From the NCBI GenBank assembly GCA_019117445.1, contig DWZS01000090.1:1-52761 (forward strand): 52,761 bases of DNA. The letters run 5' to 3'. The notes under the pieces were generated by a model. The model was not told the DNA's origin and ran no database searches. It saw only the letters and a list, made by a program, of their open reading frames with translations. The position numbers were made by a program, and so were the translations under genes. This document shows positions 38,288-45,458 of the stretch, piece after piece. Origin of the DNA: Candidatus Limosilactobacillus excrementigallinarum. Its GTDB lineage: Bacteria > Bacillota > Bacilli > Lactobacillales > Lactobacillaceae. How positions within the stretch are numbered: the stretch's first letter is position 1; each line of letters opens with the position of its first letter.

Positions 38288-39973
38288 ATGGCTTTTGACG
38301 GTTTTTTTACCCATGCAATGGTTAAAGAACTTAATGATACATTACAAACTGGTCGGGTGATGCGCGTTAATCAGCCGTACCCAGCCGAAATGGTGATGGT
38401 TGTGCGGGCACACCGCCATAATTACTCATTACTGGTTTCTGCGAACCCATCCTACCCCCGGGTTCAGCTAACCACCATTCCTTATCAAAACCCGGCAGTA
38501 CCAAGTAATTTTGCGATGACGATGCGCAAATACCTTGAAGGGGCCATTATCGAATCAATCGAACAGGTTGAAAACGACCGGATTGTGAAAATTAACTTTA
38601 CCAACCGCGATGAACTCGGTGATAATCAAAAATTGGTCATTTATATTGAAATTATGGCCCGTCATAGTAACGTTTCATTAGTCAGTGAACCCAACGGCAA
38701 AATTATCGAGACAATTAAACATGTTGGTTCAGATCAAAATCGGGTCCGAATCTTATTACCGGGCGCACCATTCGTGATGCCGCCCAAACAAGAACGAACT
38801 AATCCCTACCTGCCTAACCAAAAGTATTCTGATCTCGTTCGTCAATATCAAACGGATCTTAATGGCCTGGCACATGCACTTCAGCAAACTTATCAAGGAT
38901 TAGCACCAGCAACAGCTCGTGAATTAGCGAGTGAACTGCTGAACGCTGACAATCTGCCAACGGCTTACGAACAGTTCATCAATCACTTCAACCACCCCAC
39001 ACCAACTATTCTTACCAATGACCGAGGTAAGAAATCTTTCATGGCCTTTCCGCCGGTTGATCATCAAGGCTCACTGCAAACATTCCCGACTTTAAGCGCC
39101 ATGCTCGATGCCTTTTACGCCCAAAAAGCAGAAAGTGATCGAACAAAAGAACTCGCTGGACAAGTTTTAAAAGTTGTTAAGAATGAACTCAAAAAAGATC
39201 GTCGGAAGGTAAAGAAACTAAATCATCAGCTCTCTGAAGCTGCGGATGCAGACTATTACCGAATCCGGGGTGAAATTTTAACTACCTTTATGGGGCAAGT
39301 TAAGGCCGGGATGACTGACATCGATTTGCCTAATTTCTATGATAATAACCAGCCGTTACATATTAAGCTAGCACCTGAGCTTTCTCCATCTAAGAACGCC
39401 CAAAAATACTTTACCAAGTACGATAAACTGAAGGCCTCCGTTGCGTACGTGAATGAGCAATTAGCACTGACGCAAAAGGAAATTGACTACTTTGAAAATA
39501 TATTGAGTCAAATTGAAATTGCCTCCCCCGCCGATGTTCAAGATATTAAAGTCGAACTACAGGAACAGGGCTACATTAAACAGCGGAATAAAGGTAAGAA
39601 GAAGCGTAAAATTCGTGCCAGCAAGCCAGAAGAATTCCATGCGAGTGACGGGACAACTATTTTGGTTGGTAAAAATAATTTACAAAACGATCGCTTAAGT
39701 TTTAAGACCGCTAATAAGAATGAGTTTTGGTTCCACGTTAAGGACATGCCAGGCTCCCACGTGATCGTTCGGAGCACTGCCCCGACTGACGAGACGATCC
39801 AAGAAGCGGCAGAACTGGCTGCCTATTTCTCCAAAGGACGTAATTCTGATCACGTTCCGGTAGACTACTTACGGGTCAAGCAACTGCATAAACCAAATGG
39901 TGCCAAGCCAGGTTTCGTTATTTTTCGCGGGCAGAAGACACTGAGTGTGACTCCTAAGTTATTACAAAATTAA
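38288..39973 (+). CDS. rqcH: RqcH/NFACT family ribosome quality control protein
   Basis: 561-residue homologue of Rqc2/RqcH, often annotated as fibronectin-binding protein FbpA. The NFACT-N domain (MAFDGFFTHAMVKELNDTL) carries Asp97-Arg98 in ENDRIV, the residues needed for tRNA-Ala recruitment and alanine tailing. A coiled-coil middle (about 285-430) follows, then the NFACT-R domain with SDGTTILVGKNNLQND, FWFHVKDMPGSHVIV and RNSDHVPVDYLRVKQ. It binds obstructed 50S subunits and adds C-terminal alanine tails to stalled peptides. It ends in a bidirectional terminator shared with carB. In other Firmicutes it also lies near the pyr operon region. Confidence 0.92.
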   Translation: MAFDGFFTHAMVKELNDTLQTGRVMRVNQPYPAEMVMVVRAHRHNYSLLVSANPSYPRVQLTTIPYQNPAVPSNFAMTMRKYLEGAIIESIEQVENDRIVKINFTNRDELGDNQKLVIYIEIMARHSNVSLVSEPNGKIIETIKHVGSDQNRVRILLPGAPFVMPPKQERTNPYLPNQKYSDLVRQYQTDLNGLAHALQQTYQGLAPATARELASELLNADNLPTAYEQFINHFNHPTPTILTNDRGKKSFMAFPPVDHQGSLQTFPTLSAMLDAFYAQKAESDRTKELAGQVLKVVKNELKKDRRKVKKLNHQLSEAADADYYRIRGEILTTFMGQVKAGMTDIDLPNFYDNNQPLHIKLAPELSPSKNAQKYFTKYDKLKASVAYVNEQLALTQKEIDYFENILSQIEIASPADVQDIKVELQEQGYIKQRNKGKKKRKIRASKPEEFHASDGTTILVGKNNLQNDRLSFKTANKNEFWFHVKDMPGSHVIVRSTAPTDETIQEAAELAAYFSKGRNSDHVPVDYLRVKQLHKPNGAKPGFVIFRGQKTLSVTPKLLQN

Positions 39974-40003
39974 AAAGGATTGGGAAAATTCCCAATCCTT
40001 TTT
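39972..40003. terminator. Bidirectional terminator between rqcH and carB
   Basis: AAAAAGGATTGGG (39972-39984) pairs perfectly with CCCAATCCTTTTT (39991-40003) around AAAATT. Confidence 0.88.
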
Positions 40004-42515
40004 ATTCTATAAACTGCATTTCTGCCCCCATCACTTTAAGCGCGGTGGGCAGTTCCTTAATTTGCAAAGCCTTGAACGGGAACAATGCACGGTAGACGGC
40101 CGTCCGTTGTTGCGCCGGCTGCTTTTCCATTGAGCGTTGCAATAATTTACCGCTAAACTTATTAATCGCCAGACGAGCAAGCACTGCCGATAAATCTAAT
40201 TGCAAAACCTTTGATAGAAATGCAATGTCTGGCGCCGGTAAAGAACGTACCATTTGAACTTGGTAATTGCCCAGCGGATCAGTTTTCAATAAAACCTGGT
40301 ACAGTCCTGGACTGGTGAGTTCACGGACCGATTGCTCACCGAGTGCCATCACCTTTTTGACGGCAGCTGGTGCTAAGGTAGTTGGATAACGCTTCGCGAC
40401 GGTCCGATAATTAAGCTGGTCATCCGCTTGCAGTGCAGCGGTCATTCCTAGTGGGTAAACATATTGACCGTCAAACAAGGCATTATACTCCAAAAGTGGC
40501 TCATTGCTGACCACATCCTCCAACTGATCTGCAGTTGGAATGGTAAGTAACGTCATAGAGTCTGGCAGATGTTTTCGCAAACGTTCTAGCAGCTCACCTT
40601 GATTGGAAGCGACCATCACCTTAGCCGGATTTTCGATCCGCACAATATCCATCACAGTTTCGTTCGTTAATGGTTCAACATACCGTTTATCTGCAAACAA
40701 ACCTGCCATGGTTGGTGAACTTGGATTATCGTTCACCAGCACAATTCGGTAACCATGACTACGTAATTCGTTCATCACCCGACTAACTACATAATCATTA
40801 GCATTCCCATTACCAAGTCGACGGGGGCCACTACCAATTACTAAAATTGGTTGACTATCCTCTGGTCGGCTTTCATTTTCAATTTCAAAGGTGGAATAGA
40901 AGGTTCGCGAATGCTGATCAAATTCTCCCGCCGATGGATCAATTTCTTTAAACGTTCGGTTAATCTGATGCTGTTCGCGTAAATGAAAAATTTGCTCATC
41001 ACTGGTCTCCCATAATTCTGCAATCTTTCCATCATCAAATCCCCAGTACTTAGCCTCTTTCAGTACCGCCGGGCTTTCCTGGAACTGCTGAATTTCCGTC
41101 TGAATTTTTAACAGACGGTTAAATTGCGCTAAATAATAGCGGTCAATCTTGGTTAACTCTGCTAATTCCTTTTCTGAATATCCCCGCCGAATCGCCTCAA
41201 TTAGCGAATAAAGTCGGTCCCCATGGGGATGGATCAGCAGCTGATCCAATTGATCATCACTAATCCCGTGCATTAATTTGGCCTGGCCATTATGCCAGCC
41301 AAATTGATAATCCGCGTTAGCCTTAAGTAATGCTTCAATCAAACTGCGGCCAATCCCGATTGTACTGCCAACTGATTTCTTTTGGGTACCCAATTTTTGA
41401 TTATTAACGGTTAATTGGCTAAAAGGAAAAACTGGCATCCGCACCGCCGTTCGATCCATTACCGGTTCTGTGACCGCCGTATGCTTAGTTAATCCGTGAT
41501 CCAAGCGAATATTTCTCAGTAGTTCCCCAGCATATAAATGACCAACGACCCGACTCACCGGATAACCCGTCGCAATTTCAGTAAACGTGCTAATGCGATC
41601 AAAGTACGGGCTATTTTTGATCACGTAATAGCGATTTTGGTGGGGATCAAAAGCAAACTGCACGTGGTTAATTCCAACGATCCGTAGTTTGCGAGTAATC
41701 GCAAATGCCGTATTCCGCATATCTTGAATATTACGATCCAATAACGTTTGTGCTGGTAGAACAGTAATTGAATCACCAGCATGGATCCCAATTGGATCAA
41801 TGTCTTCAGCAATTCCGAGGCACATCATATTACCCGAAGAATCACGCATAACCATGACTTCAATTTCTTTCAATCCCGCTAAGCTTTGCTGAACCATCAC
41901 CTGACCGCTGCGTGACATTTGAATTCCCCGACTAACGGCCGTGCGTAATTCTTCACTATCTTGCACAATTCTCCGCATGCGGAGTGACTTGGGAAAGACA
42001 GCGCGAACCACTACCGGAAATCCAACCTCTTGCGCCATTTCTAATGCCGCCTGATAGTTATCCACCGTGGCAATCTTTTTCGTTGGTGCCTGCAAACGCC
42101 GCAGCGTCTGGTTTAACAACATCGGATTATTGACCTGGCGAACTGTCGCTTCTGGTACTCCGGCAATTTGAATATCGTTCTCAGTAAGGATCCCTGATTC
42201 ACCAACCGTTTGAAGAATTTCAAAAGCACGTCGACCGCCAAGCGTTGGCACAATTAGCTGCGGATGACGTTGATTAATCACTTCAATAATGCTCTGGGCC
42301 GTCAGTGGCAAAATATAGCGTTGCGAAATCGCAGTCGTTGTATCAAGTGACGTCGAAAATGGATTATCATCCACTAGGACAGTTTCAAAGCCGGCTTTTT
42401 GTAAGGTTCTTCCAATTTCTAGAGTTGCATAGTCGAGTTCACCGCCCTGCTGCAAGTTGTCACTCCCAGCACCAATAATCAAAGCTGTTGGTTTACTATC
42501 AGCCAAAATCTTCAT
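40002..42515 (-). CDS. carB: Degenerate, shortened carbamoyl-phosphate synthase large subunit homologue
   Basis: 837 residues, against about 1060 for CarB. The N-terminal half aligns throughout, keeping LIVPTLGG, AEDIDPIGIHAGDSITVLPAQ and HVQFAFDPHQNRYYVIK. The glycine-rich ATP loop (RPxxxxGGxGGGI) is RAVFPKSLRMRRIV (171-184). The metal-ligand motif EVNPRVSR is KNSPYFDR, with Lys300 for Glu and Ser302 for Asn. The oligomerisation domain (about 405-545, DRLYSLIEAIRRGYSEKEL) is well kept. The second synthetic domain begins normally (ILVIGSGPRRLG) but lacks most of ATP-grasp 2, and the MGS allosteric domain is absent. It is probably not an active synthase. It overlaps carA by 17 nt; GAGGAG directly abuts the ATG, so a TTG at 42506 may be used. 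Confidence 0.85.
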   Translation of the reverse strand: MKILADSKPTALIIGAGSDNLQQGGELDYATLEIGRTLQKAGFETVLVDDNPFSTSLDTTTAISQRYILPLTAQSIIEVINQRHPQLIVPTLGGRRAFEILQTVGESGILTENDIQIAGVPEATVRQVNNPMLLNQTLRRLQAPTKKIATVDNYQAALEMAQEVGFPVVVRAVFPKSLRMRRIVQDSEELRTAVSRGIQMSRSGQVMVQQSLAGLKEIEVMVMRDSSGNMMCLGIAEDIDPIGIHAGDSITVLPAQTLLDRNIQDMRNTAFAITRKLRIVGINHVQFAFDPHQNRYYVIKNSPYFDRISTFTEIATGYPVSRVVGHLYAGELLRNIRLDHGLTKHTAVTEPVMDRTAVRMPVFPFSQLTVNNQKLGTQKKSVGSTIGIGRSLIEALLKANADYQFGWHNGQAKLMHGISDDQLDQLLIHPHGDRLYSLIEAIRRGYSEKELAELTKIDRYYLAQFNRLLKIQTEIQQFQESPAVLKEAKYWGFDDGKIAELWETSDEQIFHLREQHQINRTFKEIDPSAGEFDQHSRTFYSTFEIENESRPEDSQPILVIGSGPRRLGNGNANDYVVSRVMNELRSHGYRIVLVNDNPSSPTMAGLFADKRYVEPLTNETVMDIVRIENPAKVMVASNQGELLERLRKHLPDSMTLLTIPTADQLEDVVSNEPLLEYNALFDGQYVYPLGMTAALQADDQLNYRTVAKRYPTTLAPAAVKKVMALGEQSVRELTSPGLYQVLLKTDPLGNYQVQMVRSLPAPDIAFLSKVLQLDLSAVLARLAINKFSGKLLQRSMEKQPAQQRTAVYRALFPFKALQIKELPTALKVMGAEMQFIE

Positions 42516-43581
42516 CTCCTCGCTGATTCATGAGATCCATGAACTCATCAAATAATGGATCGGTTTCATCAGGACCTGGCGCACCATCTGGAAAGAATTG
42601 AACGGAAAAAGCCGGATATTGTCGGTGACGGAGTCCTTGAACACTGTTATCAAGCAGGTCAACGTATGTAATAAAAAGCTTTTGCCGATCAACACTTTCC
42701 CGATCTACTTCAAAACCGGCACTTTGACTAGCATAATCAATCTGATCAGTAATAATTTCCTTAATCGGATGGTTCATCCCATGATGCTCTACAGGGCGCC
42801 GCTTGACAGTTGCTCCGTTAGCCATGGCAAATAATTCATGTCCTAAGCCAATCCCGAAGACTGGCACGTGCTGCTGAACTTCTTGAATCATTTTTAAGAC
42901 CGATTTTTTTAAACTGTGCGGATCTCCTGGACCACTAGAAAAAACGACTCCATCTGGATCCAGCCGCAAAATTTCATCAGCAGTCGAAGTGTACGGTAAA
43001 ACAGTAACGTTACATTTCCGACGGGAAAGTTCCCGTAAAACCCCATTTTTGAGTCCAAAGTCAACTACCACCACTGTCTTGCCGACGTCAGGGTTAGGAT
43101 ATGGTTTTGGCGTCGCTACTTGGGCTACCTGCTGATTAGTCAAGACTGTCGCGTGGAGTTGATCAAATGCATGGTCATCAGGAACAGGAACAATACTTCC
43201 TCGAATAGGTTCAGTGGCAGATCGCAATTTATGAACAAGTGCCCGTGTATCAACGTTCGTAATTCCGGGAATATTCATTTGCTGGAGGTAATGACTAAGG
43301 CTCTGACGGTGCTGGTCATCAAATGCCGCTAAATCCCGCACAATCACTCCTTTAGCTGCTGGAACGATTGATTCATAAATATTCCGATTAATTGGCACAT
43401 TGCCGACATTCGGTTGGGTGAAAACAATAATTTGGTTATCATATATGGGGTTCGTAATAATTTCCTGGTAACCAGCCATACTGGTATTAAAAACCACTTC
43501 ACCAAAAGTGACTGCTGGTGAGCCAAAGCCATCACCGGCATAAACCGAGCCATCTTCCAAAATTAAATAACGGGCAGTCAT
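42499..43581 (-). CDS. carA: Carbamoyl-phosphate synthase small subunit homologue, glutaminase-dead
   Basis: 360 residues, normal CarA length. The N-terminal CarA domain is intact (YLILEDGSVYAGDGFG, FNTSMAGYQEIITNP, QPNVGNVPINRNIYES), and the class I amidotransferase domain is recognisable. All three catalytic residues are changed. The nucleophile Cys in FGICLGHQ is Gly245 (codon GGC at 42847-42849, sequence VFGIGLGHE). The His/Glu of QYHPE are Phe330 and Asp332 (QFFPD). It cannot hydrolyse glutamine by the known mechanism. The ATG at 43581 is preceded by GAAGGTGA. It lies 49 bp downstream of rluD and overlaps carB, in the usual pyr operon position. Possible roles are structural, regulatory or none. 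Confidence 0.9.
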   Translation of the reverse strand: MTARYLILEDGSVYAGDGFGSPAVTFGEVVFNTSMAGYQEIITNPIYDNQIIVFTQPNVGNVPINRNIYESIVPAAKGVIVRDLAAFDDQHRQSLSHYLQQMNIPGITNVDTRALVHKLRSATEPIRGSIVPVPDDHAFDQLHATVLTNQQVAQVATPKPYPNPDVGKTVVVVDFGLKNGVLRELSRRKCNVTVLPYTSTADEILRLDPDGVVFSSGPGDPHSLKKSVLKMIQEVQQHVPVFGIGLGHELFAMANGATVKRRPVEHHGMNHPIKEIITDQIDYASQSAGFEVDRESVDRQKLFITYVDLLDNSVQGLRHRQYPAFSVQFFPDGAPGPDETDPLFDEFMDLMNQRGDEDFG

Positions 43582-43630
43582 TGAAATTTCACCTTCTGTC
43601 AATTAGTACCTTTTCATTCTACACCACATT

Positions 43631-44557
43631 TTAATTTGTTCGTGGCAAATCTGTTTGATCCAAGTGCCTTAACATTTGCGCAAACCAAGTCGGCAAAGGA
43701 GCCTCAAACACCATTTCCTTACCTGTAACTGGATGCTTAAAGCCCAATAGACGAGCATGTAAATACTGGCCATTTCCCTTCAAGGTTTTTCGTGGTCCAT
43801 ATAATGGATCACCCGCCAGCGGATGGCCAATGTATTTCATGTGAACCCGAATCTGATGGGTTCGACCGGTTTCTAACTTACAGGCAACTAATGTGTAGTG
43901 ATGATATCGTTTGAGCACCCGAAAGTGGGTTACCGCTGGTCGGCCATTGGCCACCACTGCTTGCTTTTTACGATCCTTTGGTGATCGGCCGAGTGGAGCA
44001 TCGATGGTCCCCTGGTCTTCTTTAATAACACCATGAACTAACGCTACGTATTCACGTTGGTTGGTTTTCGCCTTTAATTGCGCTGCTAATGAGCGGTGAG
44101 CCCGATCATTTTTAGCGACCATTAATAATCCTGAGGTATCCTTATCAATACGGTGAACGATTCCTGGCCGGTATTCACCATTAATATGTGATAGTGGACA
44201 ATGATACAATAACGCATTGACCAAGGTATGGTTAGGATGCCCCACAGATGGATGAACCACCATTCCCTGTGGTTTATTAACGACCAAGACATCATCATCT
44301 TCATAAACAATTTCTAAGGGGATATTCTCGGGCTCTAAATCAATCTTTTGTGGTTGTTCAGGAATCACTTGAACAATATCGCCTGCTTGAAGATGGTATT
44401 TCGGTTTTACAGACTGCTTATTCACCGTCACATTACCATCCTCAATCCATTTTTTTATTTGTGAACGAGAAACATCTGGTAAGAGCGTGGCCAGTTGTTT
44501 ATCAATTCGCCCGGTCTCTTGGGCACTAATTTTTAGTTGGGTTGGTTGATTCGGCAT
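43631..44557 (-). CDS. RluD-type 23S rRNA pseudouridine synthase
   Basis: 308-residue RNA-modifying enzyme of the RluA/RluD family. An N-terminal S4 domain (about 10-70: GRIDKQLATLLPDVSRSQIKK) is followed by the catalytic domain with RPGIVHRIDKDTSGLLMVAKN, whose aspartate is the nucleophile, and LETGRTHQIRVHMKYIGHPL. The ATG at 44557, preceded by GAAGGGA, lies 32 nt inside lspA. This is the normal Firmicute order lspA-rluD(ylyB), usually followed by pyrR and the pyr genes. Here carA follows directly. Confidence 0.93.
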   Translation of the reverse strand: MPNQPTQLKISAQETGRIDKQLATLLPDVSRSQIKKWIEDGNVTVNKQSVKPKYHLQAGDIVQVIPEQPQKIDLEPENIPLEIVYEDDDVLVVNKPQGMVVHPSVGHPNHTLVNALLYHCPLSHINGEYRPGIVHRIDKDTSGLLMVAKNDRAHRSLAAQLKAKTNQREYVALVHGVIKEDQGTIDAPLGRSPKDRKKQAVVANGRPAVTHFRVLKRYHHYTLVACKLETGRTHQIRVHMKYIGHPLAGDPLYGPRKTLKGNGQYLHARLLGFKHPVTGKEMVFEAPLPTWFAQMLRHLDQTDLPRTN

Positions 44558-45029
44558 TACGATTCCCTTCATCCTTCTCTAACAACACAATGATAATTAA
44601 AATCACGACACCAACAGTCAAACAAGCGTCTGCTATGTTAAATACTGGAAAATTAATTGGTATTAGTTCAAACATATCAACGACATATCCGAAGCGGAGC
44701 CGATCGATAAAATTACCAATTGTTCCTGCAAAAATCAAACTAAAGCTTAGTTCTACAAGCCATTGACCACTAAACCGGTGCATTAGATAAATCAAAACAA
44801 CAATGGCAATAATGCTAACAATAGCAAAAAACCACTGCTTGCCTTCTAATAATGACCACGCCGCACCATCATTCCGCAAGTTGGTTAATTCCACCAGTCC
44901 TGGAACCAATGGACGGGTTTGATCATGTAAAATGTTATTTGCTACCCACCATTTTAATAATTGATCAGCACCAATTAAAATGACGACCAACCCGCAATAT
45001 GGCAGCCAGCTAAGTTTATTATTTTTCAT
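44526..45029 (-). CDS. lspA: Lipoprotein signal peptidase (signal peptidase II)
   Basis: Membrane aspartyl peptidase of 167 residues that cleaves prolipoprotein signal peptides after diacylglyceryl modification. Four transmembrane helices are present. The two catalytic aspartates lie in GTIGNFIDRLRFGYVVDMFEL and PVFNIADACLTVGVVI. It overlaps ebsA upstream (11 nt) and rluD downstream, forming a tight operon. Confidence 0.95.
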   Translation of the reverse strand: MKNNKLSWLPYCGLVVILIGADQLLKWWVANNILHDQTRPLVPGLVELTNLRNDGAAWSLLEGKQWFFAIVSIIAIVVLIYLMHRFSGQWLVELSFSLIFAGTIGNFIDRLRFGYVVDMFELIPINFPVFNIADACLTVGVVILIIIVLLEKDEGNRNAESTNPTKN

Positions 45030-45426
45030 CGTCTTTAATCACCCCATTTACACGCAACAAATGTTGAATCGATCGCAACGAGCGTTCAGTAAATGAGAAA
45101 GTCATTACCTCGCCTTGGACAGTAATGGTCATTGTATGCTTCGTAAATAGTGGTTGCCGAATCTCCTTAGTTGGAATCACCAAATATTCCTTCACTAATA
45201 GGCGGTTAAAAACCATCTTACTTGGTGAGATTACTACCGTCCTGCGGAAAATCTGCAAAGCAGCTACGACTAAAAACACTGCGATAAAAGTTGCCGTAAT
45301 CCATTGAAAATGGGTGATCTCAAATGCAATAATGATTCCAATAATTAAAATGATGAGGGTCCAACTCCAATCAATGATTGCGGTTGTCAAATCAGGTTGA
45401 TAAAAATACCGTTTTTGTTCTTCCAT
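45019..45426 (-). CDS. EbsA family membrane protein
   Basis: 135-residue protein with two transmembrane segments (about 20-38 and 45-62) and a C-terminal beta-rich domain resembling a bacterial PH-like fold (VISPSKMVFNRLLVKEYLV). It matches the EbsA family named after an Enterococcus gene next to a RNase HI-like gene, the same order as here. The ATG at 45426 follows AAGGAG. It overlaps lspA, suggesting coupling. The function is not established. Confidence 0.75.
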   Translation of the reverse strand: MEEQKRYFYQPDLTTAIIDWSWTLIILIIGIIIAFEITHFQWITATFIAVFLVVAALQIFRRTVVISPSKMVFNRLLVKEYLVIPTKEIRQPLFTKHTMTITVQGEVMTFSFTERSLRSIQHLLRVNGVIKDDEK

Positions 45427-45458
45427 TTTGTTCTCCTTCAAAGTATGAGGTTTTAAAA

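Follow-up and report, generated by a model that had tools for sequence, protein, structure and literature searches.

The question raised by this locus is what a gene for the large subunit of carbamoyl-phosphate synthase (CPS) might be for when its product has lost catalytic residues of the enzyme. The gene, here called carB', lies on the minus strand (40002..42515) of the window, by which we mean the whole 52,761-nucleotide stretch of contig DWZS01000090.1 that was analysed, from the 1.63-Mb draft genome of Candidatus Limosilactobacillus excrementigallinarum. Its open reading frame is uninterrupted over 837 codons from the ATG at 42515, as an earlier note on this DNA had claimed, and an alternative TTG start at 42506 is better spaced from an AGGAG motif than is that ATG. 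It is overlapped by 17 nt at its upstream end by the frame of a degenerate small, glutamine amidotransferase subunit, CarA' (42499..43602, minus strand), which opens with a TTG at 43602; the probable carA' start is the ATG at 43581, which is preceded by AGAAGGTGA and would give a protein of 360 aa. The same genome contains an active pyr-type carAB at another place, with a CarB of 1066 aa. Among the best 80 named loci the closest relative of the window is that of Limosilactobacillus coleohominis 101-4-CHN, with 99 % identity in CarA' and 97 % in CarB'.

The pair is embedded in a string of minus-strand genes. Directly upstream of carA', across a gap of 28 nt that contains no pyrR, is a rluD-like gene (43631..44572) for an RluA-family pseudouridine synthase, the product of which scores 351 bits against a cut-off of 193 (TIGR00005) and 295 bits against the 351 required by the RluD equivalog model, falling below the latter. 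It is preceded by lspA, for signal peptidase II (44526..45029), and by an EbsA-like gene (45019-45441; Pfam PF17255), which is frequently kept in the same string as lspA, rluD, carA' and carB'. On the other side, an rqcH/FbpA-like gene with NFACT domains (38288..39973, plus strand) converges with carB' and is a common right flank of the locus. A terminator-like hairpin of 15 pairs followed by a T-rich tail (39971..40004, minus strand) lies at the carB' stop and is common to the convergent rqcH; it is a consensus match only, and the region holds four such sites where 5.8 are expected in shuffled sequence. Neither a PyrR attenuator nor any other Rfam element was found near carA' in the window at gathering score.

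The functions of the CarB residues considered here (Arg129, Arg169, Glu215, His243, Glu299 and others) we take to be those of E. coli CPS, whose numbering we use. It had been proposed that CarB' lacks the Gly-rich loop and the Glu and Asn metal ligands, together with most of ATP-grasp 2 and the MGS domain, and alignment with active CarB agrees on each point: the loop is absent, Glu299 is replaced by Lys and Asn301 by Ser. Arg129 (Pro) and Arg303 (Tyr) are lost as well, so that the catalytic and metal-binding set of ATP-grasp 1 is missing, and Arg169, Glu215, His243 and Gln285 are kept. Counting as invariant those columns that are the same in at least 21 of 22 full-length CarB rows (one of which was later recognised as a type IV degenerate CPS, described below), CarB' retains 1 of 121 in ATP-grasp 2 and 1 of 19 in MGS; the figures for the other regions are 6 of 73 (pre-ATP-grasp 1), 46 of 152 (ATP-grasp 1), 10 of 38 (oligomerisation) and 10 of 65 (pre-ATP-grasp 2). 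Within the genus the residue alignment used 46 of 50 rows, excluding two broken or partial genes (G009, G014) and two loci at contig ends (G040, G046). Across 100 CarB' rows position 299 is Lys in 94 and Arg in six, and Asn301 persists in eight; 21 of 22 control CarB rows have Glu299, the exception being the type IV protein. Against the curated CPS large-subunit models, CarB' falls below both cut-offs, with 506.6 bits against 1027 (TIGR01369) and 503.6 against 599 (NF003671).

The small subunit is affected at its active site too. In the window CarA' has Gly for Cys269, Glu for Gln273, Phe for His353 and Ile for Ser47, and the catalytic triad Cys269-His353-Glu355 reads Gly, Phe, Asp; Asp at 355 is also seen in active relatives. 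Cys269 is Gly in all 102 CarA' rows, and His353 is Phe in 94 and Ser, Tyr or Asn in eight, while 23 of 24 control CarA rows keep both Cys and His, the exception again belonging to a type IV CPS. For the Cys-His-Glu triad, a part in glutamine use has support in passages of PMC4655335. CarA' nevertheless passes the curated small-subunit cut-offs, at 355.8 bits against 307.35 (TIGR01368) and 410.5 against 221 (PRK12838), and genomes without CPS can therefore be annotated as bearing it.

Such a pattern could also be that of an enzyme with new chemistry in one of its remodelled pockets, either an ATP-grasp ligase or an amidotransferase-like protein. Both pockets are remodelled in a fixed fashion, not eroded, with near-invariant replacements in CarA' (Gly269, Glu273, His291 and Ala308) and in CarB' (Lys299, His283 and Arg179), and several ATP-grasp-1 core residues are retained. 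However, the Mg ligands Glu299 and, in all but the eight rows noted above, Asn301 are substituted, a Lys where the metal would be bound speaks against chemistry with Mg-ATP, CarA' has neither nucleophile nor general base, and ATP-grasp 2 is down to one of its 121 invariant columns; we regard this explanation as unlikely.

The predicted structure shows what has survived. An AlphaFold model gives CarB' a confident CPS large-subunit fold (pLDDT 88.9), in keeping with the proposal of the earlier note that the scaffold is retained, and its structural alignment stops at E. coli residue 922, near the expected start of MGS. In comparison with active CarAB or PyrAA-PyrAB (E. coli structures 1JDB, 1C30 and 1BXR), CarA' is without the nucleophile and the His, and CarB' is without the metal ligands, the Gly-rich loop and the MGS domain and is short by about 115 residues within the alignable part (801 of 917). 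A precedent for a dead amidotransferase domain inside an active CPS is human CPS1, as described in the available portion of PMC4655335. In that ammonia-dependent enzyme (5DOU), however, both phosphorylation domains are active and an allosteric domain is present, and CarB' has neither.

These losses are common to a large set of orthologues, which we call type I. CarB' was matched in all 50 genomes of the genus and is uninterrupted in 48, being cut by a contig end in G014 and carrying stops in G009. With a curated CarB model the short form was found in 36 of 40 Lactobacillaceae genomes picked to span genera, and in 21 of 25 genera; residues were read in 19 of these 21, and two (g6 and g28) are assigned by score and length only. 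The split between forms in these 40 genomes is clean, since all 36 short forms score 370-552 bits, below the NF003671 cut-off, in frames of 820-901 aa, and active CarB scores 1132-1610 bits in frames of 1025-1119 aa. One active CarB match (G056, contig C1, 1077458-1080619) falls within a 1382-aa open frame, which exceeds the usual length by about 320 aa and is possibly a CarA-CarB fusion. The best 80 of 410 relatives, as named, comprise Limosi-, Pauci-, Lactiplanti-, Secundi-, Levi- and Furfurilactobacillus, Pediococcus and a few broader names. A profile search that covered 395 genomes from across the order gave CarA' scores of at least 586 bits in Lactobacillaceae alone; this search separates type I only, types II-IV scoring among active CarA.

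The arrangement of the genes is conserved together with their sequences. Among 100 loci (the best 80 named and 20 others, in which at least three pairs, L119/L158, L140/L159 and L144/L168, represent one genome each), carA' and carB' overlap in 59 and lie no more than 36 nt apart in the remainder. In 99 loci rluD is upstream of carA' on the same strand, with a gap of -95 to 1202 nt; the sole exception, L139, is cut by a contig end 432 nt upstream of carA'. One further locus (L213 of G034, at a contig start) has rqcH, carB', carA', rluD, lspA and the EbsA-like gene all on the plus strand, in reversed order and with 3-nt gaps, and looks like concatenated coding sequences rather than a real chromosome. 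By a simple NG86 calculation dN/dS is 0.006-0.021 for CarA' (six pairs) and 0.017-0.053 for CarB' (five pairs); two of the eight CarA' pairs and three of the eight CarB' pairs were saturated and yielded no value, and several others are near synonymous saturation, so the low values are rough. Between the window and L. coleohominis the corresponding ratios are 0.017 for rluD, 0.030 for rqcH and 0.117 for lspA. In three genome pairs CarA' has diverged about as much as active CarA (72-75 % against 74-80 % identity), whereas CarB' has evolved faster than active CarB (48-51 % against 79-85 %). In the CarA tree a branch supported at 100/100 separates the 36 type I rows from the others.

Catalytic losses are thus common to orthologues under purifying selection. 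That CarB' is a decaying pseudogene, open by chance, might be argued from the loss of most catalytic residues, from its quick evolution and from its broken state in G009; set against these are the dN/dS range of 0.006-0.053, the 48 uninterrupted genes in the genus, the presence of the short form in 36 of the 40 genomes sampled from the family, and the confidently predicted fold. We give decay hardly any credence, and both this and the sequencing-error reading were rejected on dN/dS and breadth of occurrence. In G009 (L. equigenerosi; loci L057 and L059), CarB' and active CarB are both in pieces and CarA' is open; the broken CarB' reflects either real decay or draft-assembly errors, and CarB' may be dispensable. 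The earlier proposal that CarB' is a pseudoenzyme and not a fresh pseudogene is supported by family-wide orthologues with the same losses, by low dN/dS, and by conserved synteny and gene coupling. We consider that CarA'-CarB' is probably a conserved pseudoenzyme heteromer that works without catalysis and has some job other than that of CPS; by its residues the pair would be inactive as a CPS, and the constant pairing of the genes suggests that the two proteins associate and may have kept their interfaces, as the earlier note proposed.

The position of the pair points to where it came from. Upstream of pyr-type carA, rluD is present at 3-5 kb on the same strand in 15 of 16 regions fetched, with lspA as well in 13; among the 15 are four Lactobacillaceae genera and one type IV locus. 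The exception, L204, is in a genome which bears the dead pair and which groups with Lactiplantibacillus, and the 6.7 kb that precede the active carA in the window genome contain no rluD either. The order lspA-rluD-pyr is the ancestral arrangement; with rluD immediately in front of it, the type I pair therefore stands at the ancestral pyr site.

The pair also persists where active CPS was not found. Active CarB was not seen in 19 of the 50 genus genomes, 13 of which are at least 90 % complete, and in the family sample of 40 the dead pair occurs without active CPS in 14. In 11 of these 14 neither PyrB nor PyrC scores above the curated cut-off, which is what we mean by their absence; G100 has a weaker PyrC match. 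The function of the type I pair is probably not pyrimidine synthesis, since these 11 genomes are without PyrB and PyrC in this sense. Three genomes (G035, from L. reuteri, G140 and G076) have PyrB and PyrC above cut-off and no active CPS; another source, perhaps arginine catabolism, must supply their carbamoyl phosphate.

Three further kinds of degenerate CPS (types II-IV; loci L215-L222 and L189) resemble type I in lying behind rluD and in having Gly for the CarA Cys, with His353 gone, in nine of nine pairs read. Type II (L215-L219, five loci in genera g4, g8 and g35) has the order lspA-rluD-pyrR-carA-carB-rqcH-degV, with a CarB of about 800 aa. Its CarA has Gly for Cys269, Asp, Gln or Glu for His353 and Leu for Gln273; its CarB, unlike that of type I, keeps Glu299, but most of MGS and a portion of ATP-grasp 2 are missing from it, and the pair stands behind pyrR. 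Type III (L220, in G070 of genus g22) has rluD, pyrR, a uracil-permease-like gene that just misses its cut-off (465 against 477), carA, and a carB for 643 aa, then an OMP decarboxylase gene and a frame for a phosphoribosyltransferase. The CarA Cys is Gly and the His is Glu; the CarB, unlike that of type I, keeps Arg129, Arg169, Glu299 and Asn301, and is without ATP-grasp 2. This genome has an active CPS elsewhere. The first ATP-grasp site of types II and III may not be dead, and judged by its residues it appears less clearly so than that of type I.

Type IV (L189/L201, L221 and L222, in G344, G378 and G406 of genus g49) lies in a pyr operon and belongs to another family (f2) than type I. Unlike type I its CarB is of full length (1063-1067 aa) with an MGS domain, and catalytic residues of both CarA and CarB are lost; no second CarB was found in these genomes at E<=1e-250. 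The operon keeps PyrC, and in G344 also PyrB, with both proteins passing curated cut-offs there, while G378 and G406 have PyrB elsewhere. PyrR RNA sites reach gathering score in two of the three type IV loci searched (L221 and L222, not L201). PyrR itself is confirmed by curated models in L215, L216, L220, L201 and L221, and was named by eye in L217-L219 and L222. For types II-IV dN/dS is 0.034-0.071 in CarA and 0.080-0.103 in CarB, type II being near saturation. A search of 158 genomes for the GLGHQ pattern, which would miss other forms of dead CarA, found dead-type CarA outside family f1 only in genus g49 of f2 (G344, G378, G406 and G460); numerous matches in family f8 were rejected, as none matched a CarA.

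These neighbourhoods are an argument for a further explanation, in which CarA'B' acts on active CPS or the pyrimidine pathway as a regulator or as a component of the same assembly, for instance in the role of a decoy subunit or of an allosteric partner. Type II and III pairs lie directly behind pyrR or behind pyrR and a uracil-permease-like gene, type IV is within a pyr operon with the PyrR RNA sites just described, and mixed CarA'/CarB complexes are conceivable. The 14 genomes that have CarB' without active CPS, 11 of them also without PyrB and PyrC above cut-off, speak against it, as does the position of type I carA' close behind rluD, with no pyrR between the two in the window. We hold this explanation to be improbable.

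Comparison of the trees bears on how often such pairs have arisen. In the CarA tree type IV joins the active CarA of its own family with support of 98/93, and a single clade of types I and IV is rejected (p-AU 0.029), while one of all types is not (0.104). The CarB tree, which has long branches and a bootstrap that has not settled, rejects neither grouping (0.309 for all types and 0.159 for I and IV), and joins types I and II at 92/99. Degenerate types are likely to have arisen two or more times, and type IV is apparently separate in origin from type I.

How the pseudoenzyme heteromer favoured here might work can be sketched with caution. The residues for glutamine hydrolysis and for the two ATP-dependent phosphorylations are lost along with MGS, and the fold, predicted for CarB', and the gene pair are kept. 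The ATP-grasp-1 pocket of CarB', with equivalents of Arg169 (Arg or Lys), Glu215, His243 and the G-I-H-x-G-D-S loop, might bind a nucleotide, with the Lys or Arg in place of the metal ligand Glu299 standing in for Mg2+, and CarA', the slower-evolving half, might present a conserved surface to a partner. We suggest tentatively, as one doubtful possibility, that CarA'B' serves as a scaffold or switch that depends on a nucleotide, on the grounds that no part of CarB' is better kept than the ATP-grasp-1 core and that a fixed Lys or Arg replaces the metal ligand. With the Gly-rich loop missing and Arg129, Glu299 and Arg303 replaced, ATP may not bind at all; our literature search found nothing on the retained ATP-grasp-1 residues in nucleotide binding. 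A broader conjecture, which we think could be right without expecting it to be, is that the CPS complex of Lactobacillales has an old non-catalytic function and has repeatedly been kept as a dead scaffold once its catalysis was dispensable. Types I and IV, both with Gly for the CarA Cys, would then be independent cases at the rluD site, with types II and III as perhaps a third and a fourth, and CPS would have a moonlighting role unrelated to carbamoyl phosphate.

In the literature searched, which was covered in part, we met no account of a dead CPS pair from lactobacilli. Available text on L. reuteri ZJ625 names a large chain of carbamoyl-phosphate synthase as one of the differential proteins, and this may or may not be CarB' (PMC11445297). 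Models and transcriptomes of L. reuteri KUB-AC5, as far as the accessible text goes, assign a carbamoyl-phosphate synthase of EC 6.3.5.5 (PMC8869380, PMC8500091), and that strain may have an active CPS; the L. reuteri genome in our sample (G035) has the dead pair only. We considered lp-2284/lp-2285 of L. plantarum K25 (PMC9728241) as evidence of CarA'B' expression and dropped them, lp_2285 in strain WCFS1 being queA according to the portion available of PMC6459948.

In summary, a central metabolic enzyme has become a conserved pair without recognisable catalysis in much of a large family of bacteria from food and the gut. Finding the role of CarA'B' would show a textbook fold in a new function.
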